Shown here: positions 1,684 through 44,895 of the stretch, piece by piece
Layout: every line of letters starts with the position of its first letter
Position numbering within the stretch: the first letter of the stretch is position 1
Assembly (NCBI GenBank): GCA_001599355.1
Contig: BCGQ01000009.1
Coordinates: 434,001-498,000, forward strand
Length of the DNA: 64,000 bases
DNA from: Nakazawaea peltata
Taxonomy: Eukaryota; Ascomycota; Pichiomycetes; Alaninales; Pachysolenaceae
Direction: 5' to 3'
Notes under the pieces: model-generated
The model's input: the letters and a program-made list of their open reading frames with translations, nothing else
What the model was told of the DNA's origin: nothing
The model's database searches: none
Position numbers and translations under genes: made by a program

Positions 1684-4056
1684 TTAAATTAAAGAGTAAT
1701 GACCTGGACTTGGTGGAACATCTCCAGATTCCCAAACTGTTGGTTCACTACCTAACTCGAAATGAATAGAACCTCCATGAGCAAACAAATCCTCATGGCT
1801 GACCCAGTTCTTATTCCATCTTTGACCATTGACAGTAACAGATTGGACATAGAAATCGGTCTCAAAGTTATCACTATTAGCAGTGATTTGTAATTTTCTA
1901 TTTCTGTCACCATCGACGTAGATAGTAACAGAAGGAGCAAATGGAGCCAGAAGTAAGTATGTAGAAGTAGCAGAGACAGGGTAAATACCAATCAAAGACC
2001 AGAATAACCACAGTTGCATAGCTCCGGCATCGGAATTACCTGGTAATCCAGAAGCTCCAGTGGTGTACTTGTTATTGATCAAGTATCTGATAGTCTCAAC
2101 GGTACGGTATTGACGGTTAACAAAGTTGTACATGAATGGGGTCAAGAAACTTGGCTCATTTCCAATATCAGCCAACGAATCACCGTATAATCCAAACATA
2201 TCGTCTAATCTTTGAGAGAAAGTGTCGTTTGAACCGATGAAACTGAGCAAAGTAGCAACATCATGAGGAACAGCCCATCCATACTCAACAGGTTTACCTT
2301 CATATTCGTCATTGCCCCAGTAACAACCTCCACAACTCATTGGATCGTAATTACTGTAGTTGAAAGCTCCATTAGCATCCTTTGGTTGGATGAATCCAGT
2401 GTAATTATAAGACGAGGAAGAAGCTTCTGGGTTCCAGATGTTTTGCCAGTTAGCCGATCTCTTCAAATACTTTTGCAGATCGTCATGTTTACCCAAACCA
2501 GAAGCAACAACGTACAATCCGAAATCATCGTACAGATACTCCATAGTTCTGGTGACAGATCTACTGTAGTTACGGGTAATCCAACCATACTCAAGCCAAT
2601 CTGGTAAAGCACCACGTCCATCAGCATTAGACAGATCAGGAGCAAAACTATCATATTTATAAGGAGGAGCAACTTCGGCATCTTTTTGCATCAGACTGTA
2701 ACCATCTTGCCAATTAATACCATTTCTAACATTTTTAACGTAAGCATCGGCCAACAAGATATCGGCATTACTTCCACCTTGAGTTCTACCATTTTGATTC
2801 AGAGAACGAGCATCTGGCATGAACCCGTCATGTCTATAAGTATCGATTAAACTTCTGACGATCTCGGCACCTACACCACTTGGACTTAAGACGTTGAACA
2901 ATGGGTTCAAACAACGGAAAGTATCCCAAATGGTGAAGAAATCATCATAGTATGGTTCGTCGGAGTCCCAGCCTGGGTTTTCTCCAGTTCTATTAGATGG
3001 CAATAAATGAGCTCCGTATAAAGCAGTATAAAGCCAGTTAGAGATAGTAGCATTATCAGTTTGAACTTGGACCTTATCGAATACGGTCTCATTCCACAAT
3101 CTTCTAGATTCCATAACGGTGTCATCGAGATCCCAACTGGAGAAATCATCCTCAATGTTTTGACAAGCTTGTTCGGTAGAAATGAAAGAAATACCGACTC
3201 TGCTCTTGATGACATTGGAAGAGTTGGCAGGGAATTCGAATACAAAACCAAAAGATCCGTCGGTTTCTAAAGACTGAACGGTAGTTTCAGTAGTACTGTA
3301 ATCAGATTCTTGGAAACCAGTAACGGTGGAAGGAGTGGTGTCGAATTCTCCACAGTAATAGATGGCCCAAGCACTTTGTTCACCCCAACCTCCGGTAATA
3401 GTTGTCTCACCGGTGTATCTATAGTTGGAGTCAACGTCCAAAGTACCATTGACAAAGTACTGAGTCCACCAAGGTCTAGAAGGAGCGACTAAATGCAGAG
3501 AACCATTGACGATAATCTGAGGAGTAGATCCGGTAGGGAAAGTATACTCATAGATACCAGCTCTATCAGCACTAGCAAACTCCAGAGTAATACCACTATC
3601 GAATTCTACTTTGTAATAACCTGGAGACAGGGTATCCAGGGTAGATCTGGTGTTATAAGCTTGAGAGGTGAAGTCGACACTACCAATGTAAGGCAATTGC
3701 AGAGCAACACCATATTCTGGCAGACCACCGGTACCGGATTCGTGCATCATCGAGATCAGAACGACGTCTCCATCTGGAGCATATCCAGAATACAGATCTC
3801 CCAAATCGGAATTGATGACATCGATACCCATCTTGACCATACCGAACGGTCTAGTAGCACCTGGGAAGACATGGCCTCCACCTTCGGTACCAAAGAACAA
3901 GTTAGCTTGATCAATAGGAGCGGTAGTGTTACCGGCAGACCCTCTGAACAGAGAGCTGGCAAAGAGTGACTTAGTTAATGTCGAAAACATATGTATCAGA
4001 CGCTCGGGGTCTTGTAGACTTGCGAGGAAATAGTTAGCTAAGTTCAGGAATACCAT
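1684..4056 (-). CDS. GH92 alpha-mannosidase, full length
   Basis: A 790-residue protein covering the whole GH92 fold (N-terminal beta-sandwich, then (alpha/alpha)6 catalytic domain). The family removes terminal alpha-linked mannose from glycans by an inverting, Ca2+-dependent mechanism. Landmarks are NLFFGTEGGGHVFPG, TRPFGMVKMG, SMMHESGTGG near the N-terminus, DTFR and SNADILLADAY in the middle, IGNEPSF, and GLPGNSDAGAMQLW near the C-terminus, the last matching the GNxDxG region that holds the catalytic base. The ATG at 4056 gives an N-terminus (MVFLNLANYFLASLQDPERL) without a typical signal peptide; the next ATG (3990) gives MFSTLTKSLFASSLFRGSAG, also weak. Its neighbour at 1-672 has a strong signal, so the two may act in different compartments. 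A 1.3-kb upstream region may carry its control elements. Linkage specificity cannot be read from sequence. Confidence 0.92.
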   Translation of the reverse strand: MVFLNLANYFLASLQDPERLIHMFSTLTKSLFASSLFRGSAGNTTAPIDQANLFFGTEGGGHVFPGATRPFGMVKMGIDVINSDLGDLYSGYAPDGDVVLISMMHESGTGGLPEYGVALQLPYIGSVDFTSQAYNTRSTLDTLSPGYYKVEFDSGITLEFASADRAGIYEYTFPTGSTPQIIVNGSLHLVAPSRPWWTQYFVNGTLDVDSNYRYTGETTITGGWGEQSAWAIYYCGEFDTTPSTVTGFQESDYSTTETTVQSLETDGSFGFVFEFPANSSNVIKSRVGISFISTEQACQNIEDDFSSWDLDDTVMESRRLWNETVFDKVQVQTDNATISNWLYTALYGAHLLPSNRTGENPGWDSDEPYYDDFFTIWDTFRCLNPLFNVLSPSGVGAEIVRSLIDTYRHDGFMPDARSLNQNGRTQGGSNADILLADAYVKNVRNGINWQDGYSLMQKDAEVAPPYKYDSFAPDLSNADGRGALPDWLEYGWITRNYSRSVTRTMEYLYDDFGLYVVASGLGKHDDLQKYLKRSANWQNIWNPEASSSSYNYTGFIQPKDANGAFNYSNYDPMSCGGCYWGNDEYEGKPVEYGWAVPHDVATLLSFIGSNDTFSQRLDDMFGLYGDSLADIGNEPSFLTPFMYNFVNRQYRTVETIRYLINNKYTTGASGLPGNSDAGAMQLWLFWSLIGIYPVSATSTYLLLAPFAPSVTIYVDGDRNRKLQITANSDNFETDFYVQSVTVNGQRWNKNWVSHEDLFAHGGSIHFELGSEPTVWESGDVPPSPGHYSLI

Positions 4057-8586: not shown

Positions 8587-9537
8587 ATGAAGGTCAGTGG
8601 ATTGGTTTTGTCTTTGCTGCTAATTGCCAACTCGGCGTATGCTTTCAAGAACACGGCTCCATTGTTCGTTCAAGATTTAAGCGCCGACATTGAGCCAAAG
8701 TTTGCCTACGTCACCAAGCAAGAGAACGTACCAGTTTGTTCATTATTGGGTGAGTCCGGTAAGAAGAACATTGTATTGCAAGTTCCTAATTTGTCGAAGG
8801 ATGACTTTGAGTACAATTCCAAGCACTTATCTGAGTTTGCTAGCTTGGTAAAGCTGGACTTCTTCAAGTACACTCTTTACTACAAGTACAGTGGAAGTGA
8901 AGATATTGCCAGTGAATGTACTGATGTCAATGTTCGTGAGGTTGAACTTGAAGATGGATTGCTGAGCGATTTGTCTGATATCTCTGAAACTTTGGTCGTC
9001 AAATTCCCTCTGCTTTCTCCAAAGGCCTCTAATAGAGGTGAACAATTAGAAGAGCTTGACCAATTTATCGGTCTGCTTATGACTATGAAGAATGAGATCA
9101 AACTTGTTGTTCAAGGATTACCTCAAAAGTCATCTGACACCATCCTGAATAAAGTTTTTGAAGGAATTGATCAAATAATGAAGGGTAATATCTATAAGAG
9201 AGCCGAAACTGAGGAACAAGAGACCACTGGTTTTGAAGAGGCCGAGCAAGAAGTTGCCGATGCTTTCAAAGAGATTCAAGACTTACTTTCTGAAGAAGGT
9301 GATAATGGAGTCACTATTTACAGTTCTGATTCTGACGTTGGATCTTCTGCTTCCAACTCCACCAGTTCTGGTTTATTACATCACTATCAATTCTTCTCTC
9401 CTGGTATCTGGATGGCCACCATTGTTTCGTTTGCATTGCTTAGCATTTTGATAATCCTGTTCCAATGGTTGAACTCATTAAATATCAGTTACAAATCATT
9501 TGAAAAACCAATCGATAACCAAAAGAAGACTCAATAA
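8587..9537 (+). CDS. VOA1: ER membrane protein of the Voa1/Big1 family
   Basis: A 316-residue type I membrane protein. It has a signal peptide (1-19, MKVSGLVLSLLLIANSAYA), a lumenal domain starting FKNTAPLFV, an acidic stretch at about 205-245, one membrane span (about 271-292) and a short tail ending KKTQ, a KKxx ER-retrieval signal. The block around the span (FFSPGIWMATIV...WLNSLNISYKSFEKP) resembles the shared C-terminus of yeast Voa1, Big1 and the animal V-ATPase accessory protein Ac45. Voa1 helps assemble the V-ATPase V0 sector together with Vma21; Big1 is needed for beta-1,6-glucan. VMA21 lies only 1.6 kb downstream, which mildly favours Voa1. Assignment between the two paralogous families needs a tree. 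It ends 10 nt from convergent ERG24. Confidence 0.65.
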   Translation: MKVSGLVLSLLLIANSAYAFKNTAPLFVQDLSADIEPKFAYVTKQENVPVCSLLGESGKKNIVLQVPNLSKDDFEYNSKHLSEFASLVKLDFFKYTLYYKYSGSEDIASECTDVNVREVELEDGLLSDLSDISETLVVKFPLLSPKASNRGEQLEELDQFIGLLMTMKNEIKLVVQGLPQKSSDTILNKVFEGIDQIMKGNIYKRAETEEQETTGFEEAEQEVADAFKEIQDLLSEEGDNGVTIYSSDSDVGSSASNSTSSGLLHHYQFFSPGIWMATIVSFALLSILIILFQWLNSLNISYKSFEKPIDNQKKTQ

Positions 9538-13924: not shown

Positions 13925-15844
13925 ATGATTAGAAGCATTTGTAAGACTCTGAGTCTCCTGCAAAAGAGTAGCAGATTGTTCCACACCACTGCTGTCTCGA
14001 GACAGATAATAGCAGACAGATTGAACGGTAAGAATGCCGCTTCCATGGTTCAAAAAGACTACCATATTATTGACCATGAATACGATGCCATCGTTGTTGG
14101 TGCTGGTGGTGCTGGTTTAAGAGCCGCTTTCGGTTTACTGCAAGATGGTTTCAAGACTGCTTGTATTTCCAAGTTATTCCCTACCAGATCTCATACTGTG
14201 CTGCTGCAAGGTGGTATCAACGCTGCTTTGGGTAACATGCACGCCGATGACTGGCACTGGCATATGTACGATACCGTCAAGGGTTCTGACTGGTTGGGTG
14301 ACCAAGATCTGATTCACTATATGACCAGAGAGGCTCCAGATTCTATCATTGAGTTGGAGCACTTTGGTGTCCCATTCTCAAGAACCGAGGAAGGACGTAT
14401 CTACCAAAGAGCCTTTGGTGGTCAATCCAAGGAATACGGTAAAGGTGGTCAACTGTATAGAACTTGTGCTGTTGCCGACAGAACTGGACATGCTCTTTTA
14501 CACACCTTGTACGGTCAACTGTTAAGACATAACACTCACTTTTTCATCGAGTTCATGGCCATGGACTTGTTGATGCACGACGGTAAGTGTGTCGGTGTTA
14601 TGGCTTACAACCAAGAAGATGGTACCTTGCATAGATTCAAGGCCCACAACACCGTTATTGCCACTGGTGGTTACGGTAGAGCCTACTTCTCTTGTACCTC
14701 CCTGCACACATGTACCGGTGATGGTTACGCCATGGCCCTGCGTGCTGGTTTGCCATTGCAAGATTTGGAGTTCGTTCAATTCCATCCTTCCGGTATCTAC
14801 GGATCTGGTTGTTTGATTACTGAGGGTGCTAGAGGTGAAGGTGGTTACTTGCTTAACTCTGAAGGTGAGAGATTCATGGAAAGATATGCCCCAACCCTGA
14901 AGGATTTGGCCTCCAGAGACGTTGTTTCTAGATCTATCACTATGGAAATCAACGCCGGTAGAGGTGTTGGTCCAGAAAAGGATCACATGTACTTGCAATT
15001 GTCTCATATTCCAGCTGATATCTTGAAGGAGAGATTACCAGGTATTTCCGAAACCGCTGCTATTTTCGCCGGTGTTGATGTCACCAAGGAGCCAATTCCA
15101 ATTTTGCCAACCGTCCATTACAACATGGGTGGTATCCCAACTAAGTACACTGGTGAGGTTGTTAAGTTAAATGAGAACGGTGAAGATGAGATTGTCGAAG
15201 GTTTGTATGCATGTGGTGAAGTTGCTTGTGCTTCCGTTCACGGTGCCAACAGATTGGGTGCCAACTCTCTTTTAGATTTGGTCGTCTTCGGTCGTGCCGT
15301 ATCGCACACCATCAGAGACAAGAACACTCCAAACACACCTCACAAGGAATTGCCTCTGGACATCGGTTACGACTCTGTCGCTAACTTGGATAAGATGAGA
15401 ACTGCTAACGGTACTAGATCTACTGCTGATATCAGATTGGATATGCAAAAGACCATGCAAAAGCACTGTGCCGTCTTCAGAGACCAAGATATGTTAGACC
15501 AAGGTGTTGAGAAGATCATTGCCGTTGACAAGGACTTTGCCAACATCAAGACTTCCGACAGATCTATGATCTGGAACTCTGACTTGGTCGAGACTTTGGA
15601 ATTGCAAAACTTGTTGACTTGTGCCGTTCAAACCGCCGTCAGTGCCGCTGCCAGAAAGGAATCTAGAGGTGCTCACGCCAGAGATGACTACCCAACCAGA
15701 GATGATGAGAACTGGATGAAGCACTCTTTGTCCTACCAAACCACCTCTGGAGATCTGGTCAAGTTGGACTACAGAGCTGTTATCAGTGAGACTTTGGATG
15801 CCAACGAATGTAAGTCTGTCCCACCAGCTATCAGATCTTACTAA
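13925..15844 (+). CDS. SDH1: Succinate dehydrogenase flavoprotein subunit
   Basis: A 639-residue mitochondrial matrix subunit that oxidises succinate to fumarate with covalent FAD, linking the TCA cycle to complex II. It shows a presequence (first about 35 residues, rich in Arg, Ser, Lys), the dinucleotide fold GAGGAGLRA, the FAD-attachment His in RSHTV (codon 91), the active-site region [24 protein letters not shown], and [22 protein letters not shown] codons at residues 72, 93, 94, 129, 177, 199, 260, 272 and 325 fall where orthologues have Ala (129 and 272 have Ala, Ser or Thr in relatives), for instance [19 protein letters not shown] for [15 protein letters not shown]. This is the clearest proof in the window that CTG reads as Ala. 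Otherwise the protein is full length and intact. Confidence 0.98.
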
Positions 15845-16580
15845 GCTTTAGCATCTCATAGTTTTTTTCTTTTTTTGACCTTATAGTAAAAAAAAAAATA
15901 TTTATATACATTATTTATAATAGTTAGTGCTGTATATGAAGGGATGGTTCTGATGTTACCATTGAGTCATCGACTAATACTATTTATAATATTCATTATT
16001 TAAGGTAATGTAGGGAGAGGGGGTAATGGGACTAGAAGTTAATGTTGGTTGAAAAGTAGATGAACTAGTTAGTTGGTCTGATAGAGAGTTAGAGAGTGGG
16101 TGTAGCAATACATTGAGTTTAAGTATGGTGTTTACCCCACCCCCTTTATATCAATTTAAGGAATCATCAGACTATTTATAGATAATTGTAATTGAAAATG
16201 AAATTAAAAGGGGCTAAATCACATGCAACTTTGAGAAAAGATTAACTTCGGTTTTCGAGTTCCGTGGATTTAGTGCGCTTGATTTATTCCTTCTCAGATG
16301 TTCCGATGCCTTCCCCTCACTTCCGCCTTCAGTCCTCCCCCTTTTCACTTTCACCCCTTTTCTCTCTTTCCTCCCCCTTTCTCCTTTTCTTCTTTTCCTC
16401 CCTTTTTTCCCTTTTCCCTCCCTTTTTACCTCCCTCACTTTTCCCCAGCCCATCCCATCGCTAAATCAAAAAAATTTTCTCTAGCAAAAAAAAGAAAAAA
16501 AATTTTCCATACAAAAATTTTCACATAGAAATTTTTAACTAACGGCGGTTAGCTTAACAGACAGTGTTAATACAATCAAG
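15845..16580. other. Region between SDH1 and NOP7, with a long pyrimidine tract
   Basis: SDH1 terminator and NOP7 promoter. From about 16310 to 16448 the plus strand is almost pure C and T (CCCTTTTCTC-like runs). Between 16468 and 16540 come four AAAATTTTC/T blocks resembling the RRPE element of ribosome-biogenesis promoters, suiting NOP7. Open frames across the pyrimidine tract are low-complexity artefacts. Confidence 0.6.
16468..16540 (+). promoter_or_regulatory. RRPE-like AAAATTTT cluster before NOP7
   Basis: Four AAAA(A)TTTT(C/T) blocks lie within 75 nt, 40 to 110 nt before the NOP7 ATG. AAAATTTT is the core of RRPE, bound by Stb3 in S. cerevisiae at ribosome-biogenesis genes. AT-richness makes chance matches possible, but the density is notable. 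Confidence 0.4.
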
Positions 16581-18311
16581 ATGCTGAGAATAAAGAAGAA
16601 GAACACAACTGGTAACGCCAAGAACTTCATTACCAGAACTCAGGCTGTTAATAAATTACAGGTGAGTCTTGCAGACTTCAGAAGATTATGTATCTTCAAG
16701 GGAATCTACCCAAGAGAACCCCGTAATAAGAAGAAGCTGAACAAAGGTTCCACTCTGCCAGTCACCTTCTACTATGCTAAGGACATTAAGTATTTGATGC
16801 ATGAGCCAATATTGCAAAAGTTCAGAGATCACAAGACTTTCAGTAAGAAATTGACCAAACTGTTGGGTAAAGGTGAAGTTTTCGCTGCTAAGAAATTGGA
16901 GTCCGATAGACCACAGTACAAGTTGGATCATGTTATCAAGGAAAGATATCCTACCTTCATGGATCTGATTAGAGATGTTTCGGATCTGTTGAACATGTTA
17001 TTCTTGTTCAGTAACTTGCCTGCTACCTCCGACAAGATCAGTGCTAAAGTAACAAAGGATTGTGAAAAATTGTGTAACCTGTGGACTATGTACGTTGCTC
17101 GTGAAAGATTGATCAGAAAAGTATTTGTTTCCATTAAAGGTGTTTATTACTCTCTGCAGATCAAGGGCCAAGAAGTGATATGGTTAGTTCCGTTCAAGTT
17201 GCCACAGAATATTCCATCTGACATTGATTTCAGAATCATGTTGACCTTCTTGGAATTCTATTCCACTTTAGTCAACTTCATTTTGTACAAATTATACACT
17301 GGAAGCAATTTGCAATATCCTCCAAAATATGATCCTTCTATTTTGAAGAAGACTGGTGGTTTGTCTTCATTGATTTTGGAATCTTCTGATCTGAAACTGA
17401 CCGATTCCATCTTGGGTCAAGTTCCTGTCGCTTCCACTACTGAATCTGAGCTGACCTTGTCTGCCGAGCAGATTAAGAAGCTGATGCAAGCCGACAAGAA
17501 ACAAGTCCAAGACCAAGAAGACCAAGAAGAATCCACTGAGGACGTTGAAACTGTAGAATTAGATGAGTTTAAAGACTCCTCTTCAAAGAGTACTGGTGAT
17601 ATTTTGGTTCAACCTTCTAAATTCGACAACCCAGTCTCTACTTTATTCGAAGGTAAGGTCTTCTTCGTTGGTAGAGAAGTTCAAATTGAGATCATGGAAC
17701 TTTTAGTTCTTGCTTGTGGTGGACAAATTATTCCTGAGATTTTAGTCGATGCCGATTCCAAGAAGTATGACTTATCAAAGGTAACCCACCAAGTCACCGA
17801 TAGACCAAAGATCACCAAAAAGGTACTGGGTAGAACTTATATCCAACCTCAATGGATCTTCGATTGCATAAACAAACGTCAATTATTACCTGTTTCCAAC
17901 TATGCTCCGGGAGAAACTTTACCACCTCATTTATCTCCATGGGGAGATTCTGTTGGTTACAACCCTGAACTGTCTGATGAAGAGAGTGATGAGGATGAGA
18001 GTGAGGAAGAACTGGAAGAAGAGGAAGAAAAGGAAGACGAGGAAGAGGAAGATGAAGATTTGAAGGCTCAAAAGGAATTAGAGCTGGAAGCTAAGGGCAT
18101 CAAATTCTCTGATATCGACAGTGGAAAGGTCACAAAGAAGAAGAAGGTCACCACTACTGCCGAAGAAGAGAAAGAATTGGCTAAGATCATGATGTCCAAC
18201 AAACAAAAGAAGTTATATAAGAAGATGCAATACGGAATCGAATCTAAACAGGATAAGATTGACCTGTTGAAGAAGAAGAAGAAGCTGTTGAAACTGAAAT
18301 TGCTGAACTAA
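16581..18311 (+). CDS. NOP7: Ribosome biogenesis factor Nop7 (pescadillo)
   Basis: A 576-residue pescadillo orthologue, a nucleolar PeBoW-complex member (with Erb1 and Ytm1) needed for 60S subunit maturation. The N-terminal pescadillo domain (about 1-280) has [22 protein letters not shown] and [15 protein letters not shown] domain follows (about 355-450, with [20 protein letters not shown] and [10 protein letters not shown]), then a long acidic Asp/Glu run (about 475-500) and a Lys-rich coiled-coil tail. CTG codons again sit at conserved Ala sites: KGST-CTG-P for KGSTAP, MD-CTG-IRD for DAIRD, SD-CTG-LNMLF for DALNMLF. The length is close to the 605 of S. cerevisiae. RRPE-like blocks precede it. 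Confidence 0.97.
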
Positions 18312-18520
18312 TTCATATAAGGACAAATAAATGTGATAGAAACTTGATAGTAGTAGTAATTAGTTTACCTGATTTGTAAATTGTGTGTACACGACCAATT
18401 TGTCCCGATTTGGAATTTTGAGTGCACACGACTTTTAAATACTCAGAGCCACAGTTAACTCCATTCCTATATTACTCCCCTACACTAGTCTTACACACCA
18501 ACATAACATTAATACAATTA

Positions 18521-20647
18521 TTATTCAAGCCAATGGATCAAGAAAGACGAAAAGATGGTGATCACCAACAAAATGCATACTCCATTAACTCCATACAGAG
18601 CATCATAACGTACGGCTCTTTTACGTCTGATATTGTAGACTCTCCACAAGTAAGTAGCCAAACTGTACCATAAGACTAAGATACCGGAGATGAAGAAGCC
18701 GACACTCGATAAGATATTCAAGTTGGAGTTACCATAGTTCAACAAGACAGTACCCATGGAACCAATAGTCATGGCAATAGTAGTCCAAGTAAGATAAGTT
18801 CTCTCGGTAGCGAAATATACCTTTGGTTCGACTCTAACTGGGACGGAGATCTTCTTTCCTGGAGGCAGTTTGATCTTGGTATCAAAGACAGTACCCAGAG
18901 GGACCTTATTGAAAGAATGATCTGGTTGTAAGAAGGATCTTACGTATTCGACAAGAGAGAATTCTTGTGGAGCAGGCTCTCCTGTTGGAGATGATAATAA
19001 TGGAGCATTTTCCAGGGAATTCTCGGTGGTGTTTGGTAAGAATTGAACTCTTGAGTCCAAATTTCCACCGACAAATTCTTCTTCATCAATAGAATTGTAC
19101 TGAGAGGTATGAGGCAGTCTTACGATACCGAATTCTTCGTTATTCTTTGGTTTTCTGATATCTACATCCATTTGAGGTAACCAGAATGGAATCAAATCGA
19201 CTTTTTCCGGTAACAAAGTGGCACAACCATGAATGAATTTGGAGAATTTAGGAACCAGCTCTACAAGATGACTGCTGACCAATTCACGAACCCACAGAGG
19301 AGGTTCTTGACCCAATTGAGTTTGTAATTTCACTTCCAAAACGGCGTATGGAAATCTACAAATATCTTTCTCTGGAACTTGAGAGAATGGGAAATCGACA
19401 CCAATATCCATTCTTCTCCAGTTACCATGAGTTCTGTCTTTACCATCGAAGTTGTCTTCTCTAATTAAGGTCAACTCGGTATCTAAAGAGATACGTACAC
19501 GGGCATCACCTGGCAATTGGAACAGAGTTCTGTTATAGAAAGATCTCATAACAGGTCTGAATTTATCTTTGATGACTCTGTATTGAACCTCATTAGCCAA
19601 TCTTTCCAAACTCTCAATCTCTTTAGCACCCTTCTTCTTTTCCTTTCTCATTTTTTCAAAGACTTGTGGTACGGTGAATTTACCTCTCATGAAATCGTTA
19701 ACATTTCTTTCCTTCATTGGGAATCTCAGTTTAACAGACTTCTCACCGGTCCAATCTTCTCTATGTGTCTTACGTTCGACAAAGACATTGTCATTGGACA
19801 TACCACCGTACCATCTTAATCTGATCAGCTCGGCACCTTCGTCCTTCAACAATCTACCATAGTACAAGTCCATCTTGGAGTTGTCATAATAGATAGAAGT
19901 GATAGCACTGTCTTCTTTCTCGAATTCCTTGTTAGCATTGAAGACCAAGACTGGCAAATGCTTCAAAATAATCAACTTCAACTCGGTGATATTATCTGGA
20001 TGAACCCAATACTTGGTAGTTTGTCTGACGAAATTCTGTTGAGATCCACCAGCAGCAGAATCTCCCTTGACTGGGTTACCTCTGGTACGAACCAAATCGT
20101 ACAATTTGGACAATCTGACGATCAACCCATCGTAGTTATCTTTATAGAACAGCTTATTGTTCAAACGAGCCTGGAAAATCGGTTTCAAAATGAAAGCATT
20201 GTTGGTCATCTTGTCGTGCTTCTTCAAAATCTTCTGGAATCCAATGTAATTCAAACGAGAGAACTTCAGCAAATCATGGACATCGGCGATGATATCACTT
20301 AATTCCTTCTCCAAATCTTCGAAATCTTGCTCGTACATCATGAGCAACTCATCATTACCTTCATCGTGGTTCTTGGCGTCATTGTTATTCTGAATCACCT
20401 CATAAACCATCAGCTCGGTGTCCTCCATCCTACGTAAAGTCTCCAGATGTTTCAAGGTGACGAAATTGTACACCTTATCCAAATCTTTCTCGAGGAAACT
20501 GACGAATTCTTCCTCAGCACGGTCGGTCCATTTACCATTGTTGGAAGCCAAACCTTTCTTCAATTGGTACTTCAACTCATCGTACTGAACGTAGTAGTAA
20601 TTGTAGTCCGGGATTAACGAACTTTTCAATGTTTCTCCAAACTTCAT
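18521..20647 (-). CDS. VTC4: Polyphosphate polymerase Vtc4 of the vacuolar transporter chaperone complex
   Basis: A 708-residue protein with three domains: SPX (about 1-160, starts [19 protein letters not shown]; inositol pyrophosphate sensor), the tunnel-shaped polyphosphate polymerase domain (about 195-480), and a C-terminal three-span membrane domain (about 605-705). Catalytic-tunnel motifs include [35 protein letters not shown] and [17 protein letters not shown], where the conserved Lys is present. Vtc4 makes polyphosphate from ATP and feeds it into the vacuole. CTG codons occupy conserved Ala positions (SVK-CTG-RF, AE-CTG-IRLRW, NRT-CTG-FQLPGD, HDL-CTG-KFSRLNY, K-CTG-PPGK). A CACGTG site lies about 150 nt upstream, suiting control by phosphate starvation. 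Confidence 0.97.
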
Positions 20648-22640: not shown

Positions 22641-23783
22641 ATGGAGGTCAGATTTTCGGTGTCTCGGCGGATGAGTAGTGGTTTTCGACTGCTTCTGCGC
22701 ACAAGTGTCAGGGGTTATAAAGTATTGGCGATCGAGACTTCATGTGATGACTCTTGTGTCGCTTTATTGGATCGGTTCTCTCCAGATGAGCCTCCGAAGC
22801 TCATTGCCCATTTGAAGAGTACTTTGGATTCGAGGGAAACAGGAGGTATTGTGCCCACACAGCTGTTTATTCATCACCAACAGAATTTAGCTCCATTGGT
22901 GGCCCGGATGTGTGAACAATACTCACTCCATTCATCTCCACCTGATGTGATCTGTGTCACTAGGGGACCTGGAATGCCTGGCTCTCTCAATATCGGCTGT
23001 GATACCGCTAAAGGTTTAAGTGTTCTGTGGGGGAAGCCTATAGTTGGAGTACATCATATGTTACTGCATTTATTGATACCACGTATGAAATCTAATGGAA
23101 TTTCTCCAAAGTTCCCATTTTTCAGTTTGTTAATCAGTGGGGGTCATACTATGCTTGTAGAATCTCTCAGCTTGACGAATCATAAGATCATTTGTGATAC
23201 CATTGATATTGCAGCTGGAGATCTGCTTGATAAATCTGCTAGATTACTTGGTTTCAAGGGAAATATGATAGCTAGAGAAATGTCTGAATTCTTGACCTCT
23301 TTCGACTCTTCTACAACTGATAATTCTACAATTGATTTAAAATCTATTCATACCCCACTACAAAATAAACCAGGACGTAAAGATATACAACTGTTTTCAT
23401 TCAGTTCGTTAAATGGGATGGTTCAAAGGACTTTAGAAAAGAACAATATCACCCAAATTAATGATAATCATAGATATATCATCGGATCTCATATAGAAAG
23501 GACTGTTTTCCAACATCTTGTGGATAAAATTAGACTTTCAACCAAGGGGAAAGAAGGAGATCTTGTCATCAGTGGAGGAGTATCGGCTAATATGAGAATG
23601 CGTCAAGAATTAGAATCACAATTACCCCAATTCTCTTTCCATTACCCAGAATTATCTCTATGTACAGACAATGCGGTGATGATTGGCTGGGCAGGAATAG
23701 AATTATATGAACAATTTAATTACACATCCGATTTAGACTTCACCCCGATTAGAAAATGGCCACTTGATGAGATCTTAGTCTGA
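22641..23783 (+). CDS. QRI7: Mitochondrial tRNA t6A threonylcarbamoyltransferase
   Basis: A 380-residue member of the Kae1/TsaD family. It transfers threonylcarbamoyl to A37 of mitochondrial tRNAs that read ANN codons. A basic N-terminus (RRMSSGFRLLLRTSVRGYK) suits mitochondrial import. The ASKHA fold begins VLAIETSCDDSCVALLD; metal-binding His residues lie in GVHHMLLHLL; the phosphate loops are LLISGGHTML and LVISGGVSANMRMRQEL. The ending TDNAVMIGWAGIE is the C-terminal family block with the metal-binding Asp. The mitochondrial Qri7 acts without KEOPS, unlike cytosolic Kae1. Its last 9 coding bases overlap tail to tail with NSE4. Confidence 0.94.
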   Translation: MEVRFSVSRRMSSGFRLLLRTSVRGYKVLAIETSCDDSCVALLDRFSPDEPPKLIAHLKSTLDSRETGGIVPTQLFIHHQQNLAPLVARMCEQYSLHSSPPDVICVTRGPGMPGSLNIGCDTAKGLSVLWGKPIVGVHHMLLHLLIPRMKSNGISPKFPFFSLLISGGHTMLVESLSLTNHKIICDTIDIAAGDLLDKSARLLGFKGNMIAREMSEFLTSFDSSTTDNSTIDLKSIHTPLQNKPGRKDIQLFSFSSLNGMVQRTLEKNNITQINDNHRYIIGSHIERTVFQHLVDKIRLSTKGKEGDLVISGGVSANMRMRQELESQLPQFSFHYPELSLCTDNAVMIGWAGIELYEQFNYTSDLDFTPIRKWPLDEILV

Positions 23784-25155: not shown

Positions 25156-26946
25156 TCATAATAAACTTTTGGTGAACCAGGACTCGAGTCCTCTCTCTTT
25201 GATGAAATTCTCGTTGGTGAGTAAAACATTAAACACTTTAATGTACCTTAAACTCTTACAATTAGAGGTGATTTGCAGATTAATCTGCTTAATTTTACTC
25301 AAGCTCAATTGACTTGGAGTGAGATGGTTCATGTTAAATTCGTAATCCTCAGTACTTTCAACCTCACCATATATTACGTTGTCAATGTAAGAATTATTGT
25401 CTCCCGGTATCATGAATGGAGATACCATCCCATTACTTGCAGTTACATTTGGTGTAGTGATGTTTAGTTTGTCGTTCTTAATCACATTAAATTCCTCGAT
25501 TACCAATTCGAGTAATTCCAAATTAGGTAAATGTGGGAGTACATTGTAAATGAATCTCGAGAGGTTGGAGATGGAGATGGTGATTCGGAGTTTCTTCAAT
25601 TTCTTATGTTTAGTCAATTTACGTTCCAAGATCTTTATTGGAATAGATTTCAACTGGTGGTCATCTGGAGTTGAATAATCTATAATAAGTCTTGTTAAGT
25701 CACGGTGCTTATTGACCAGCTTGAAAAATAAAAGAGGGTCCCAAACCCCTTGGATAGAACATTCTTTGATGTTAATGTATAACTTATCGAGATTTTTGAT
25801 TTGAGAAATCACTTTTGGGAAATCTTTGTAAGTGTCGTAATCGAGATTTAATTCTTTTAGGCTGCCTAAATGTGGTGTTATATTGGCTAACCATTTCAGT
25901 GATTGTAACTCGCTGCAGTCGGTGATGGTTAATTTGCGCAATTTGGTTAAATCGCAGTATCTATGCAATATTTTATGGTCGTCTAAATCGAATATTATTC
26001 CGTCGAAGCACAATTCTGTGATCTTTAACTTTTCTGAGCGATCTGAGTAGGCAAATAAATGTTTGAGAGTATCAATATCAAGATCTAAGGGGGAATTTCC
26101 GTTTAATGATCGCGTGGGACTCGTTGCTCTATTGAACACCATGGAACTGAAATCGTTCTGTTGTAACTCGTTTGTCATTCCATTGTAGAAATACTTATTA
26201 AAACAATCCTGTAAATAGTTGAAATCAATTCCAATCAGATTTACGAGACTATATGTAATGGGGAACTCTGTAGGTTGGTTCTTGCATATCGATAATCTAG
26301 ATACTGTTTTTGGAATCTGAAGGTCATGCAAGTAAACTGATTTACCGACATTTATCAAGGATAACTTATCTAAAGACTGCCAGTTACTGATATCTTTCGA
26401 GAGGTTCATGGCTCCATGTATGTTCTTCTTCTTCTTCTGAGACAGACTGGTGGTGAAATCACCTGTTAACTCATATAATTGATCACATGAGGGTAAAAGA
26501 GTGATCAAAGAATCCAAATTGATGAAACAGGAATGATATTGAAAATCACATCCTTTCAACCTCTTTAATCTTCCAAAAAGATACTTGAAATAATTCAGTA
26601 ACTCAAACTCAATAAAATGATCTGGTAATCTTACAACTTTTATGAAGTTGATCAACCTAATTAAGTCTTCATTGGTCTGTAAGGTTCTGAAAAAGTGCTT
26701 TAACCCATTACAACTTCTGATCACTGTAGATCTGTACTTGGAATTCCCAAAATTAACATAATCATTTGAGTCGACCAACTCCTTGTGGAATACCTGATTA
26801 GTAGAATCAATAACAATCGAGTCATATAACCTGGAAACACATGCCTGGTAAATGCGCTTGTTAGTCAAAATTAAATGGTAGCAATCAGACTGACTCAAAT
26901 ACGACAGTACCACACCAAGTAACTCATGAGGGAGTTTATCTAACAT
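25156..26946 (-). CDS. F-box protein with leucine-rich repeat-like region
   Basis: A 596-residue protein. The ATG at 26946 (MLDKLPHELLGVVLSYLSQSDCYHLILTNKRIYQACVSRLYDSI) opens directly into an F-box (about 1-40), the Skp1-binding module of SCF ubiquitin ligases. The rest is a series of irregular leucine-rich repeats (for example LRKLTITDCSELQSLKWL, GSLKELNLDY, LDKLYINIKECSIQG, LKKLRITISI, LPNLELLELVIEEF), expected to form a substrate-binding arc. I cannot tie it to a specific yeast gene. An upstream in-frame GTG at 26955 is not a plausible start. A TCACGTGA site lies 170 nt upstream (27116-27123). Confidence 0.75.
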   Translation of the reverse strand: MLDKLPHELLGVVLSYLSQSDCYHLILTNKRIYQACVSRLYDSIVIDSTNQVFHKELVDSNDYVNFGNSKYRSTVIRSCNGLKHFFRTLQTNEDLIRLINFIKVVRLPDHFIEFELLNYFKYLFGRLKRLKGCDFQYHSCFINLDSLITLLPSCDQLYELTGDFTTSLSQKKKKNIHGAMNLSKDISNWQSLDKLSLINVGKSVYLHDLQIPKTVSRLSICKNQPTEFPITYSLVNLIGIDFNYLQDCFNKYFYNGMTNELQQNDFSSMVFNRATSPTRSLNGNSPLDLDIDTLKHLFAYSDRSEKLKITELCFDGIIFDLDDHKILHRYCDLTKLRKLTITDCSELQSLKWLANITPHLGSLKELNLDYDTYKDFPKVISQIKNLDKLYINIKECSIQGVWDPLLFFKLVNKHRDLTRLIIDYSTPDDHQLKSIPIKILERKLTKHKKLKKLRITISISNLSRFIYNVLPHLPNLELLELVIEEFNVIKNDKLNITTPNVTASNGMVSPFMIPGDNNSYIDNVIYGEVESTEDYEFNMNHLTPSQLSLSKIKQINLQITSNCKSLRYIKVFNVLLTNENFIKERGLESWFTKSLL

Positions 26947-27115
26947 TTTCCACACTTCTTAAGCTCTCCAAATGTGACTCCTCACCTTCAACCTTTCAAA
27001 CTTTTATACAAATATCCAAAATTTTTTGACCGTGTCATCATTCTCCCCCCTTCATGCAGACCTCGGTCCAATGAAAAATTATCGAAACGATCTACGATTT
27101 TTTTTGTGTGTTTGG

Positions 27116-27149: not shown

Positions 27150-28209
27150 CTAAGCGACGATGGTGCGATCTTTATCACGCCAAGTTGATTCAAGCCACTT
27201 TTCGAGATGTTTGCGTTTTGTGGGGACTCTGGAAAGTAACTTACTGCGAACCTGAATGTGTATCTCGTAAGGGGATGGAGTAATTGAAAAGAGTTGAAGA
27301 AGCGTTGGAGGGCTGGAAGATACCGGTGATTTTTTATGCGGGAACAAAGGGGTGACCGCGGAGGAAACCTCGGAGAGAAGAATAGGTGCTGGGGAATCTG
27401 GTGGGGTATTATTTGATGTTAAATACGAGATTGTAATATCGTAAAGACGAGTAGTTGATGAAAATTCGAGCTGTTGAATCGCATTGTAGAAAGCTGAAAA
27501 TCGCGGATATAATAAATGTTTAAGCTGGGGTAGATAAAATTTCTCGCTCATTTCCGCTTGGAGCTTATGAGATTCTTCTGTGTAAATATTCACCTCAGGA
27601 AAGAGGGCTATCCATTGAGGTTTATTTGAATTCAAAACTTTATCGAAAGTTGCGATATTCAGATCAGGTTCGAGTTCCCAATTTTCATCCGCCGAAATCA
27701 TACTTTTGATAATACTCACATTAGGAATAGACCAGAGTCTATACCAGGTGAAGAATCTAAGTTGAGGCTGCAGAATTCGGTGTAGATCGTATTCTTTATC
27801 TCCTAGAATAGCCATATACTGAAGAGCAAAGTAATCAACCAATGAAAGATGGTTACTGATAAGAAGTGCGTTATCATTCTCCAACTTATCTCCTTCTATA
27901 ACGAATTTAGCCCCTATCAAATTCTTCTAAAAAGTTAGATATATATAATTTATAAATCATTCTCTTAGATCCACAATAGATACTTACAATCAACAAATAA
28001 AGACTTAGTCTCCAAAACAACTCTGACAGAAATCCCTTAATATTTTGATAAACACCAGGAACTAATATTGCCATCCAGATACACGTCATTCTAAAAATAT
28101 GGTACAGCGCTAAATACAGGAGGAGAACCCCTAAAAACAAGTACCCTTTAAGAGAATTGTCCTCACCCCAAATTCCAATATGTTTCAATAATTCTGAGGA
28201 CAAATTCAT
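27150..28209 (-). CDS. PlsC-family acyltransferase, one intron (Cst26/Mum3-like)
   Basis: Exons 28209-27988 and 27926-27150 join in phase 0 to give about 332 residues. The 61-nt intron (27987-27927) starts GTAAGT, has ATCTAAC and ends TTTTTAG. The first part has two hydrophobic spans (GYLFLGVLLLYLALYHIF, MAILVPG). The join restores KNLIGAKFVIEGDKLENDNALLISNHLSLVDY, where NHLSLVD is the NHx4D acyltransferase motif; FPEVN stands for the usual FPEGT-like block. This is the lysophosphatidic/lysophospholipid acyltransferase family, related to yeast Cst26, YDR018C and Mum3, which act at ER and lipid bodies. The substrate is not readable. The start is the ATG at 28209; an upstream TTG is not used. 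Confidence 0.75.
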
Positions 28210-28505: not shown

Positions 28506-31031
28506 ATGTCTCGTTTAATTGTGAAAGGATTACCTAAATACCTCGATGAGGAGAAGTTGAAAAGTCATTTTTCCAAGCAAGGAGACGTTACCGATGTCAA
28601 GTTGATGAAAAATAGAAATGGAGAATCCAGAAGGTTTGCATTCATTGGATACAAGTCAACGGCGGATGCCGAGCTGCTGGTACGGTACTTCAACCAATCT
28701 TATATAGACACTCAGAGGATCTCTGTGGAGTTGGCTAAGAGTTTTGTGGACCCATCTGTGCCATTGCTGTGGAGAGAGAAGAAGAAGTTACAGGAGCAAA
28801 GACTTAAGCAAGAGGCTGAGAAGTTAGAAGAGCAAAGAGTTAGGTTGGAACTGAAAAAACAACCAAAGAAGCAAAAGATTAGTGAGATAATTGATCAAGA
28901 GATCTCTAATGACCCAAAATTGAAAGAATTTATGGAGGTTATGAAGCCTAGTCATGAAGCTAAGAGTTGGGCTAATGATGCTGTAGTGAATGAAGATGGG
29001 GTACCATCTGCCAGGGATTTGGAGATTGCTTTGCTGAAAAAGGATTGGACATATGTGGATGAAAGTGAAGAGGTTAGATCTAGTTTACCTCCGGTCCTGG
29101 TTGTAGACCATCAGGACTCCAGTGATGATGAATATGAGGATTTCAAGGCAAAGACAGTTGAAGATTCAAAGGACCAAGATGACGACGAAGAAATGATGAT
29201 CCCATTGTCTGAGATACCTGATAAAGACGAAAATACCGAAGGAATGACCGATTTCGATTGGTTGAAGAGCAGACAGAAGAGAATCAAAGAAGGTGAAGTT
29301 CAAGAGGAAGAACAAAAACCTGAAGAGACTCCAAAGCCTCTGCCAAAAGAGCCAGAACAGCAAATAAGAGAACCTGCACCTCAACCAGAGGACGAAGGAG
29401 ATAAAGTGATAGCCAAAATTTCCGACACAGGTAGATTGTTCTTGAGAAATATTTCTTACTCAGCCAAAGAGGACGATTTCAGAGAGTTATTCAGTAGATT
29501 TGGAGATTTGGAGGAAGTACATATTGCGGTAGACACCAGAACCGGAAACTCCAAAGGATTTGCATACATTCAATTCAGTGTTCCTCAGGATGCTGTTGAT
29601 CTGTATTTGACTTTGGATAAACAGATTTTCCAAGGTAGATTGTTGCATATCCTTCCAGCTGATGCCAAGAAGTCTCATAGATTAGATGAATTTGAGTTGA
29701 AGAACTTACCATTGAAGAAGCAAAGAGAGTTGAAGAAGAAACTGGAACTGTCAAGAGCTACTTTCAGTTGGAATTCTCTTTATATGAACAATGATGCCGT
29801 TTTGGAGTCTGTTGCTCTGAATATGGGTATTGCCAAGTCCGATTTAATCAACCCTGAGAACAGTTCTTCTGCTGTCAAACAGGCTTTGGCCGAAGCTTCG
29901 GTTATTGGAGATGCCAGAAAATTCTTTGAAGACAGAGGGGTTGATTTGACTTCCTTCGAGAAGAAAGAGAAGGATGACAGAGTTATCTTGGTTAAGAATT
30001 TCCCCTTCGGTACCTCTGTGGACGAGTTGTCTGATTTATTCACTCCTTTTGGTGAGGTCAAACGTCTTGTGATGCCACCAGCAGGAACAATTGCGATTGT
30101 TGAATTCAGAGATCTGCCAAACGGTAGAGCTCTGTTCACCAAGCTCGCATTCAGAAGATTCAAAAAGTCGATCATCTACTTGGAGAAAGGTCCAGAAGGT
30201 TTGTTCACTAGAGAGCCTACTCTGAATGAATCGGTTTCTGAAAAGAGACCCGATGAAGCAGTTGTGGATCTGAAGGAGGCCAAGTTATCTGCTAATGATT
30301 TGATGGAGACTGAGACCGCAGAGGCTGTAGACGATTACTCTGGCCCAACTGTAAGTGTCTTTGTCAAGAACTTAAATTTCAGTACTACAAAGGAACAATT
30401 GACTCTGCATTTCAAACCTTTGGACGGTTTTGTCGTTGGTATTATTAAGACCAAACCAGACTCCAAGAATCCTGGTAAGACTTTGAGTATGGGTTTTGGA
30501 TTTGTTGAATTCAAGACAAAAGAACAGGCTGAAGTGGCCATTAAGACCTTGGATGGAAGTCTTTTGGACGGACATAAGTTGCAATTGAAGTTATCGACAA
30601 GAGCTACCAGTTCCACCAACTCTTCATCCAAACCAAAATCTTCAAAGACTGCCAAGATCATCGTCAAGAACTTGCCATTCGAAGCTACCAGAAAGGATAT
30701 TGTGGAATTATTCTCCAGTTTCGGCCAATTGAAGTCTGCTAGAGTTCCTAAGAAGTTCGACAAGAGTGCCAGAGGTTTTGCTTTCATCGAGTTTTCTCTC
30801 GTTAAAGAAGCAGAACTGGCTATGGACCAATTGAGAGGTGTGCATTTATTGGGAAGAAGATTGGTCATGCAATATGCCAATCAAGAGTCTGATAATGTAG
30901 ACGAAGAGATCGAGAAAATGACTGCTAAGGTCAAGAGACAAGTCGATACCACTAAATTATCGAACCTGTCTAGATTGACCGGTAAGAGAAAGTTGGATCT
31001 TGAAGATGAAGAGGATGATGTTGGATTTTGA
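28506..31031 (+). CDS. MRD1: Pre-rRNA processing RNA-binding protein Mrd1
   Basis: An 841-residue nucleolar protein with five RRM domains, needed for early 35S pre-rRNA cleavages and 18S rRNA production in the U3 processome. RRMs begin at about residues 2 (LIVKGLPKYL), 308 (LFLRNISYSA), 490 (VILVKNFPFG), 617 (VFVKNLNFST) and 717 (IIVKNLPFEA), each with an RNP1-like block such as GFAYIQF, GFGFVEF and GFAFIEF. A charged, partly coiled linker (about 95-290) separates RRM1 and RRM2. The third RRM is degenerate at RNP1, as is usual in this family. Two CTG codons in RRM1 (DAE-CTG-CTG-VRYFN) fit Ala better than Leu. Length is close to 887 in S. cerevisiae. The promoter carries PAC and RRPE. Confidence 0.96.
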   Translation: MSRLIVKGLPKYLDEEKLKSHFSKQGDVTDVKLMKNRNGESRRFAFIGYKSTADAELLVRYFNQSYIDTQRISVELAKSFVDPSVPLLWREKKKLQEQRLKQEAEKLEEQRVRLELKKQPKKQKISEIIDQEISNDPKLKEFMEVMKPSHEAKSWANDAVVNEDGVPSARDLEIALLKKDWTYVDESEEVRSSLPPVLVVDHQDSSDDEYEDFKAKTVEDSKDQDDDEEMMIPLSEIPDKDENTEGMTDFDWLKSRQKRIKEGEVQEEEQKPEETPKPLPKEPEQQIREPAPQPEDEGDKVIAKISDTGRLFLRNISYSAKEDDFRELFSRFGDLEEVHIAVDTRTGNSKGFAYIQFSVPQDAVDLYLTLDKQIFQGRLLHILPADAKKSHRLDEFELKNLPLKKQRELKKKLELSRATFSWNSLYMNNDAVLESVALNMGIAKSDLINPENSSSAVKQALAEASVIGDARKFFEDRGVDLTSFEKKEKDDRVILVKNFPFGTSVDELSDLFTPFGEVKRLVMPPAGTIAIVEFRDLPNGRALFTKLAFRRFKKSIIYLEKGPEGLFTREPTLNESVSEKRPDEAVVDLKEAKLSANDLMETETAEAVDDYSGPTVSVFVKNLNFSTTKEQLTLHFKPLDGFVVGIIKTKPDSKNPGKTLSMGFGFVEFKTKEQAEVAIKTLDGSLLDGHKLQLKLSTRATSSTNSSSKPKSSKTAKIIVKNLPFEATRKDIVELFSSFGQLKSARVPKKFDKSARGFAFIEFSLVKEAELAMDQLRGVHLLGRRLVMQYANQESDNVDEEIEKMTAKVKRQVDTTKLSNLSRLTGKRKLDLEDEEDDVGF

Positions 31032-31269: not shown

Positions 31270-32967
31270 ATGATCAGAGGTATTGGTAGAATAGGAGTAA
31301 TTAGGAGAGGAAATGCCAATTTTGGGGTTGGTAGAAGATTTTTAAGTACTAAACCTACTCCCTCATCAGCTGAGGCGGGTCTTCTGCACAAGTTTCTGTT
31401 AGTTACCGCCAGTGTGGCTCTTGGAGCACTTTTGACTCAATATTATTACTATAGAGACCCACCAAAAGGTATTTATCCATTGAATTCGACTGCTCCATTG
31501 AATGAGTTGCTTCCTGTAACCTATCTGAATGAGAAGGAGTTTGAGCAGGGACTTAAAGAGATCGAGGAAATCTTGGGTGAGCAGCATGTTTCTCGTTCCG
31601 TTGAAGATATCGAACATAGAAGTGATTCCTTCTTCAATACTCATAAGGCCAAGCCACATGAACGTCCAAAGGCAGTTGTGTTCCCAGGTTCTACCGAGGA
31701 TGTATCGAAGATCATGAAGGTCTGTCATAAGTATCGTATTCCTGTCGTTCCTTTCAGTGGAGGAACCTCTCTTGAAGGTCACTATGTTCAGACTAGACAA
31801 GGTCTTTCATTGGATATGTCAAGAATGGACAAGATCATCCTGTTCAACAAGGGAGATTTGGATGTTGTATGTGAACCAGGTGTTGGTTGGCAAGATTTGA
31901 ATGCCTTTTTGGAACCTCATGGGTTAATGATCGGAGTCGATCCAGGACCTGGAGCTCATTTAGGTGGAATGAGTGCTTGTTCATGTTCAGGTACTAATGC
32001 TTTCAATTTCGGAACTATGAAGGAGAATGTAATTGCTTTAGAAGTTGTTTTAGCTGATGGAACTGTTATCACTACTAGACAAAGACCTAAGAAAACCTCA
32101 GCTGGTTATAATTTGACCGGTTTATTCATTGGATCTGAAGGTACTTTGGGAGTAGTCACCAGAGTCACCATGAAATTACACAGTAGACCTCAAAATGAGA
32201 GTATCACTGCTGTGACCTTCCCAACTATTAAGGATGCTACTCTTCTGGTAGCTAATATGATCCAAAATGGAATCAAATTGAATGCTGTCGAGTTCTTGAA
32301 CACTGTCATGGTCAAATGCTTGAACGAATCTGGTCAATTGAAAGATCCATACCCTGAAGCACCAATTTTATTATTGAAAATCGGAGGTCTGACCCCGACT
32401 ATCACTAAAGAAACTTTAAAGAGAGTCCAAGCTATCACCAAGCTGAACAATGCCATTTCTTACAGATCAGCTACTACAGAGAAGGAGAAAGATGAGATTT
32501 GGAGTGCTAGAAAGTTGGTTCTTTGGTCGTCGATTGAGTACGGAAAGAAGATTTTGGGACCTAATTCTCAGGTTATTACTACCGATGTCGCCGTCCCAAT
32601 CTCCGATTTGCCTTCTGTCATTCTGGATACCGAAGAAGATATCAACAACTCCGGAATGCTCGCAACTATCCTCGGTCATGTTGGTGACGGTAACTTCCAC
32701 GTCTTGGTCGTGTACGATGACACAAACAAGGACAAGGCGATCGGAATCGCCGATCGAATTGTTGAGAGGGCTGTCGTTAAATATGATGGAACTTGTACCG
32801 GTGAGCACGGTGTAGGAATTGGAAAGAGACAATATTTAAAGATGGAATTAGGTGAGGACTCGATTGATTTGATGAGAAAGATCAAGATAGCAATGGATCC
32901 ACTTCGTATTTTGAATCCTGATAAGATTTTCCAAGTTGATCCTAATGAACCTGTTCAAGATCATTGA
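31270..32967 (+). CDS. DLD1: Mitochondrial D-lactate dehydrogenase (cytochrome)
   Basis: A 565-residue FAD enzyme that oxidises D-lactate to pyruvate and passes electrons to cytochrome c at the inner membrane. The N-terminus is a mitochondrial signal followed by one membrane span (about 36-54, LLVTASVALGALL). The PCMH-type FAD domain (about 130-310) has PVVPFSGGTSLEGH and DPGPGAHLGGMSACSCSGTNAFNFGTM. The C-terminal domain carries GHVGDGNFHVLVVYD and TCTGEHGVGIGKRQYL, typical of the 2-hydroxyacid/D-lactate branch. Dld2/Dld3-type D-2-hydroxyglutarate enzymes are relatives, but the N-terminal span and overall match favour Dld1. Its neighbour MRD1 ends 238 nt upstream on the same strand. Confidence 0.93.
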   Translation: MIRGIGRIGVIRRGNANFGVGRRFLSTKPTPSSAEAGLLHKFLLVTASVALGALLTQYYYYRDPPKGIYPLNSTAPLNELLPVTYLNEKEFEQGLKEIEEILGEQHVSRSVEDIEHRSDSFFNTHKAKPHERPKAVVFPGSTEDVSKIMKVCHKYRIPVVPFSGGTSLEGHYVQTRQGLSLDMSRMDKIILFNKGDLDVVCEPGVGWQDLNAFLEPHGLMIGVDPGPGAHLGGMSACSCSGTNAFNFGTMKENVIALEVVLADGTVITTRQRPKKTSAGYNLTGLFIGSEGTLGVVTRVTMKLHSRPQNESITAVTFPTIKDATLLVANMIQNGIKLNAVEFLNTVMVKCLNESGQLKDPYPEAPILLLKIGGLTPTITKETLKRVQAITKLNNAISYRSATTEKEKDEIWSARKLVLWSSIEYGKKILGPNSQVITTDVAVPISDLPSVILDTEEDINNSGMLATILGHVGDGNFHVLVVYDDTNKDKAIGIADRIVERAVVKYDGTCTGEHGVGIGKRQYLKMELGEDSIDLMRKIKIAMDPLRILNPDKIFQVDPNEPVQDH

Positions 32968-41642: not shown

Positions 41643-42353
41643 ATGGATAAATTATTGATAGAGAAAGGAGAGCTGTTGTATGGACCCCTTGTAGATTCGC
41701 TTGGAGCCGGGAAATTGTACTCAGCAGACGAGTTGACTTTCGCCGAACTCGATCAATGGAGATTTGATGAGTATCCTGAGCAATTGCTGACGCGTTATAA
41801 GGCCAATAAGGGCGTAACATGGGTCGAAAAGACCGAGTTAGTCAAATTGGTAGATTGGAAGTTGATGAAAGGCAAGTTTCGCCCCACAATTAGACCTCTT
41901 GTACAGTCAAACAGCCCTGAACTGGTCATCGAATGCTCTAAAGAGCTGTTCAAGCTTCTATTAGAGGACAAAACTCGGCTGCTGCTCGAGAAAGTGTGTG
42001 AACTCCGTGGAATTGGTCCCGCTACAGGTACATTGATACTCTCTGTACTGAGTAAAATTGCTGCTAAAGGCACCAAATTCACCGTTCCCCTCTTCTTTTC
42101 AGATGAGAGCTATTTATGGTTCAATCCAGACCAGAAGAAGATCAAATATACATTGAAGGAGTACCTTGATCTCCATTTACTGAAGCTGAAGAAGATAGTT
42201 GGTCCTTCTGGAGATTTAAATGCTGTCGAGAGAGCTACATGGGCTATAAAGAAGAAGCAGAATCTTGATCCAAAGTTCGGGATCGAGCCACATTTCTTAA
42301 CTAATTATGATGAATATATACAGGGGGTGAAGAAGACAAAGAAGGATAAATAG
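41643..42353 (+). CDS. Conserved fungal protein with a helix-hairpin-helix motif, function unknown
   Basis: A 236-residue protein of a family that I recognise as widespread in fungi but without an assigned role. Visible blocks are AELDQWRFDEYPEQL, VEKTELVKLVDWKLMKGKFRPTIRPLVQSN and LRGIGPATGTLILSV (about 125-139), a helix-hairpin-helix like those of DNA glycosylases and other DNA-binding proteins, followed by PLFFSDESYLWF. With CTG as Ala, TR-CTG-CTG-LEKVCELRGIGPATG becomes TRAALEKVCELRGIGPATG, which fits the helix better. A Lys-rich tail ends it. The HhH suggests nucleic-acid binding; no catalytic residue is evident. A cluster of CACGTG sites lies immediately upstream, and COX18 converges on it with a gap of 18 nt. 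Confidence 0.8.
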   Translation: MDKLLIEKGELLYGPLVDSLGAGKLYSADELTFAELDQWRFDEYPEQLLTRYKANKGVTWVEKTELVKLVDWKLMKGKFRPTIRPLVQSNSPELVIECSKELFKLLLEDKTRLLLEKVCELRGIGPATGTLILSVLSKIAAKGTKFTVPLFFSDESYLWFNPDQKKIKYTLKEYLDLHLLKLKKIVGPSGDLNAVERATWAIKKKQNLDPKFGIEPHFLTNYDEYIQGVKKTKKDK

Positions 42354-44709: not shown

Positions 44710-44895
44710 TTCACCTTTAATTGTCCGCTACTCGCACCTTGTCTCATTTAGACGAGTCTCAAAAGCAAATTGCGAATTTTTAAGAACAAATCAAAACTTG
44801 ATAACTAAATTTGTGTCGAGCATAGGGGATATTTTCTACTTGATTATAGGGCCTTGAACGTTGATTTCCAGTCGGATCCACCAAATATAGAAACC

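Follow-up and report, generated by a model that had tools for sequence, protein, structure and literature searches.

In the window analysed here, a stretch of 64,000 bases of contig BCGQ01000009.1 containing no N, the codon CTG is read as alanine (Ala), as in NCBI translation table 26, and the sequence comes from the nuclear genome of a budding yeast belonging to Alaninales, the order that contains Pachysolen, Nakazawaea and Peterozyma; the probability of this reading is about 97%. This code is an already known one, and it was proposed for the window in a first-pass annotation made from the sequence alone. The evidence comes from alignments with bacterial proteins in which CTG was masked, from alignments with relatives of solved structure, and from Pfam profile scores under three genetic codes.

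The window carries long open reading frames (ORFs) resembling yeast nuclear genes on both strands. The 27 listed ORFs contain 280 CTG among 14,494 codons, and the false leucine (Leu) residues that the first-pass annotation expected in standard-code translations would thus amount to about 2% of all residues. Reading these ORFs with table 26 instead of the standard code changes the Leu content from 11.8% to 9.9% and the Ala content from 4.9% to 6.9%. Intact ORFs are present for three genes central to the comparison, SDH1, NOP7 and VTC4; they contain 13, 20 and 14 CTG codons in frame, respectively, and were identified by Pfam as the succinate dehydrogenase flavoprotein, Pescadillo and an SPX-VTC-DUF202 protein.

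CTG sites in alignments with bacterial relatives

CTG was translated as X before alignment, so that no reading was built into the comparison. For SDH1 (13925-15844, plus strand) the best 80 of 585 confirmed bacterial loci were used. The genomes of 24 of these 80 loci were searched for relatives of ADE6 (FGAR amidotransferase; 60562-64000, plus strand, cut by the window end), of a FAD-linked oxidase, presumably DLD1-like (31270-32967, plus strand; 8 CTG, 5 of them alignable), of a TsaD-family protein, presumably QRI7-like (22641-23783, plus strand; 7 CTG, 5 alignable), and of a GH92-family glycosidase. The ADE6 set consisted of 13 near-full-length matches out of 30 fetched, and the QRI7-like set of the 28 of 30 loci that passed the E-value threshold; the DLD1-like set comprised all 30 loci, many of them about 30% identical and possibly paralogues. 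Relatives of these three proteins were fetched with CTG read as Leu, and any resulting bias runs against Ala.

Ala was the best of all 20 readings for CTG, with a summed score of +55.2 over the four genes, followed by serine (Ser, -23.8) and Gly (-29.6), the score of Leu being -39.1. The commonest bacterial residue was Ala at 21 of the 35 alignable CTG sites, and Ser, Leu and Pro at two each, the rest being divided among others. In the same alignments Ala was commonest at 68 of 100 GCT and 38 of 63 GCC sites, and Leu at 92 of 125 TTG sites; CTG thus behaves as an Ala codon. An earlier version restricted to the 11 alignable sites of SDH1 gave the same outcome for CTG (Ala 21.2, Leu -36.9).

SDH1 has CTG at residues 9, 12, 72, 93, 94, 129, 177, 199, 260, 272, 325, 478 and 611, including every residue number named in the first-pass annotation. 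At eight of the 11 alignable positions the bacterial proteins most often have Ala: 72 (75/80), 93 (79/80), 94 (80/80), 129 (78/80), 177 (70/80), 260 (80/80), 325 (74/80) and 478 (22/79). Residues 93 and 94 form an adjacent CTG pair (14201-14206, plus strand), at which both bacterial relatives and the solved relative 9qdl_A have Ala, and the invariant site 260 lies in the motif TS-CTG-HTCTGDG (CTG at 14702-14704, plus strand). The other three positions have Ser (199; 59/80), Leu (272; 71/80) and Lys (611) as the commonest residue.

The best solved relative of SDH1, 9qdl_A, is 76% identical over aligned residues, with masked sites scored as differences. It has Ala opposite CTG 72, 93, 94, 177, 199, 260 and 325, Ser opposite 129, 272 and 478, and Pro opposite 611, while residues 9 and 12 of the presequence are unaligned. 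The seven positions that the first-pass annotation placed on conserved Ala are therefore all Ala in this protein, with 199 departing from Ala in bacteria. Its expectation of Ala, Ser or Thr at 129 and 272 holds for 129 in both comparisons, and for 272 in solved proteins (Thr in 1yq3_A) but not in bacteria. Its statement that no site fits Leu or Ser as well as Ala was too strong, given positions 199 and 272.

In ADE6, where a single CTG had been noted, 14 were counted within the window, in addition to those of the 27 listed ORFs. The residue most often found in the bacterial proteins is Ala for eight of the ADE6 codons and Leu for residue 1058 (5 of 13 relatives), and the gene ranks among the best additional tests of the code. 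CTG residues 75, 129 and 195 of the QRI7-like protein fall on Ala columns (28/28, 16/28 and 27/28), and Ala is commonest at two of the five alignable CTG sites of the DLD1-like protein.

Solved relatives, profile scores and other readings of CTG

SDH1, NOP7 (16581-18311, plus strand), VTC4 (18521-20647, minus strand), an HSH155/SF3B1-like protein (48065-51208, minus strand; 14 CTG, 11 aligned) and a KAR3-like kinesin (39097-41244, plus strand; 24 CTG, 11 aligned) were aligned with the best PDB relatives printed for each, and 63 of their 85 CTG codons were aligned. A five-RRM protein, presumably MRD1-like (28506-31031, plus strand; 18 CTG), was excluded from this tally, its best PDB alignment being to a generic RRM protein, the poly(A)-binding protein. 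The residues facing the 63 codons were Ala (27), Ser (7), Gln (5), Glu (5), Asn (4), Pro (3), Leu (2) and others; neither here nor in bacteria do CTG codons fall mostly opposite Leu or Ser. Other Leu codons face Leu in 72% and Ala in 2% of cases (n=304), and GCN codons face Ala in 63% and Leu in 2% (n=164). The pairing of CTG with Ala exceeds chance: the share of Ala is higher at CTG than at the other Leu codons (Fisher p = 9e-19).

Among individual genes, NOP7 has Ala in its best solved relative, 11aa_n, at nine of 16 aligned CTG codons, Leu at one (residue 502) and other residues at six, with four codons unaligned; the first-pass annotation had given at least four CTG for this gene. In VTC4, compared with 8i6v_E, CTG codons 127, 274, 307, 375, 545 and 594 face Ala, one faces Ser and none Leu. 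All five VTC4 codons listed in the first-pass annotation are among those facing Ala; their number was an undercount of the 14 present. Residues 327, 565, 593 and 639 of the KAR3-like protein likewise face Ala.

Pfam scans of 28 proteins under tables 26, 1 and 12 gave matches for 27. Scores were summed over principal, mostly non-overlapping domains picked by hand, with only the top HEAT family counted for HSH155; the overlapping or weaker rows omitted include some that favour Ala (Cnd1 of the adaptin-like protein, small FAD families of SDH1) and two that favour Leu (Microtub_bd, BRCT). The Ala reading exceeded the Leu reading by 193.6 bits, with 22 genes up, three down and two tied, and the Ser reading by 91.8 bits, with 20 up, five down and two tied, in agreement with the proposed use of table 26. 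SDH1, NOP7 and VTC4 together contribute 39.5 bits over Leu and 26.5 over Ser, the MRD1-like protein 19.3 and 13.0 bits, and the Adaptin_N domain of a presumably AP-3 beta-like protein (44854-47403, plus strand; 24 CTG) 18.5 bits over Leu.

Several observations run counter to a uniform Ala reading. The HSH155-like protein aligned with human SF3B1 has only one Ala, and one Leu, at its 11 aligned CTG sites, and is a weak or contrary gene. Leu scores slightly higher in three genes, PTR2 (1.2 bits), an F-box protein (3.2) and a presumably ALG13-like protein (1.2), as well as in the uncounted rows Microtub_bd of KAR3 (1.4) and BRCT of NOP7 (1.3). Ser is ahead by 0.1 to 1.1 bits in MES1, PTR2, NSE4, an acyltransferase and an OXA/COX18-like protein, of which MES1 and OXA/COX18 are presumptive names. 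Finally, in solved relatives Ala is found less often at CTG (27/63) than at GCN codons (104/164; p = 0.007).

The last difference bears on whether CUG is ambiguous, being decoded mostly as Ala together with a minor share of another residue, so as to yield a statistical proteome. The lower Ala share fits younger codons at less conserved positions, and some ambiguity would fit too; low-level incorporation of other residues is also compatible with published spectra (PMC5951914). However, no excess of Leu over that at GCN codons (2% of 164) was detected at CTG (2/63) in solved relatives (p = 0.62), and the gap is absent from the bacterial comparison, where the share of Ala sites is 21/35 for CTG and 38/63 for GCC. 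Ambiguous decoding is regarded as very improbable.

Ser, as encoded by CUG in the Ser1 or Ser2 clade (NCBI table 12), is the second-best reading, and its matches at seven of 63 sites, its small lead in five of 27 genes and its predominance at SDH1 199 could be quoted in its favour. Table 12 resembles the code described here in reassigning the same codon in budding yeasts. It differs in that Ser fits the CTG codons of the window clearly worse than Ala, both in the bacterial scores and in the Pfam sums, and genuine Ser codons face Ser in 45% of cases (n=207) as against 11% for CTG (n=63; Fisher p = 2.5e-7). Assignment of Ser to CTG is thus very unlikely. Ordinary Leu, with the Ala matches due to chance or site selection, can be set aside: Leu at SDH1 272, ADE6 1058 and NOP7 502 and its slight lead in three of 27 genes are outweighed by its negative bacterial score and by its presence opposite only 2/63 CTG codons, against 72% of the 304 other Leu codons (Fisher p = 2e-26).

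Clade, tRNA and the remaining codons

The CUG-Ala clade was delimited as Pachysolen, Nakazawaea and Peterozyma (PMC5951914), is listed once in the available part of a Codetta survey covering 462 species of yeast (PMC8629427), and bears the order name Alaninales in the available part of a further source (PMC11540330); in the NCBI taxonomy Pachysolen and Nakazawaea are placed within Alaninales. The window is assigned to this clade because it is the sole nuclear CUG-Ala clade described in these sources. An independent change of CUG to Ala in a yeast outside Alaninales would account for the same alignments, and is held to be very improbable, since only one such clade appears in PMC5951914 and in the available part of the 462-species survey. 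There is little room, a slim chance at most, for the pair of exceptions consisting of such an independent yeast or a clade member that still decodes CUG ambiguously.

A search of the 64-kb window with ARAGORN and Rfam found no tRNA genes, and Rfam gave no matches there at all, rRNA included. The alanine identity element of tRNA is G3:U70. According to a published study of this clade (PMC5951914), its ancestor's tRNA-Leu(CAG) was lost, and CUG is now read by a tRNA-Ala whose anticodon mutated to CAG. Carried over to the window, this would mean that tRNA-Leu(CAG) was lost and CUG then came to be decoded by the mutated tRNA-Ala(CAG), which may be charged by the ordinary alanyl-tRNA synthetase. 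Former Leu sites would have exchanged CTG for other Leu codons, and the CTG codons now present may have arisen later at Ala and neutral sites.

The window agrees with table 26, the nuclear code used by Pachysolen tannophilus and the Ala clade, in CTG as Ala and in the standard meaning of 43 other codons, and no difference from it was found. For each of these 43 codons, which had at least 10 aligned sites in the bacterial comparison, the standard residue was the best, by the narrowest margin for TCG; aligned sites numbered 0 to 9 for each of the remaining 17 sense codons. For seven of the latter, CAG, ATA, AGC, GCG, CGG, TGC and ACG, with between 1 and 9 sites apiece, a residue other than the standard one scored best. 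Many sites of the first five are variable, and some lie on conserved other residues in bacteria, such as GCG 30 (Gly 28/28) and ATA 285 (Phe 26/28) of the QRI7-like protein and CAG 174 (Pro 21/30) of the DLD1-like protein. In solved relatives the standard residue is the commonest for CAG (12/27), ATA (5/16), AGC (4/8), GCG (3/4) and CGG (2/3), and reassignment of these five codons was therefore dropped. ACG matched its standard residue in solved relatives at one of six sites. CTT, AAT, GTA and TCG appeared non-standard in the SDH1-only version, on 1 to 3 sites each, and all four became standard with four genes.

TCG scored 9.0 for Ser and 8.4 for Ala in the bacterial comparison, with Ala commonest at seven of 14 sites in SDH1, ADE6, the DLD1-like and the QRI7-like protein. 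A reading of TCG as Ala was rejected, as Ser dominates ADE6 378 and 542 (11/13 each) and solved relatives have Ser at eight and Ala at two of 19 sites.

Sense-codon reassignment is rare in nuclear genomes. As the code, the clade and the origin of the tRNA have been published (PMC5951914), the practical point is that contigs of this kind should be annotated with table 26.

Other genes and features of the window

The GC content of the window is 38-42% per 4-kb piece. A value of 42.3% is given for Nakazawaea ambrosiae in the available part of PMC10106607, and the closeness of the two carries no proof value. Stop codons of the 27 listed ORFs are TAA (11), TAG (9) and TGA (7). Names such as BUD32 and ERG24/ERG4, like the presumptive names above, were attached from the Pfam families and are to be taken as assumed.

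The GH92-family glycosidase (1684-4056, minus strand) has 18 CTG codons; it gave weak partial matches in two of the 24 proteobacterial genomes searched, and these were not used. A 236-residue ORF (41643-42353, plus strand) contains nine CTG codons and had no Pfam matches under tables 26, 1 and 12. The window also encodes a VOA1/Ac45-type V-ATPase accessory protein (8587-9537, plus strand) and a Vps3844-type vacuolar protein (57927-59150, minus strand). The latter ORF, the AP-3 beta-like one and two others on the minus strand (25156-26955 and 27150-27920) are listed with GTG or TTG as the start codon, and the actual start of these four ORFs, or an exon at their 5' end, probably lies elsewhere.

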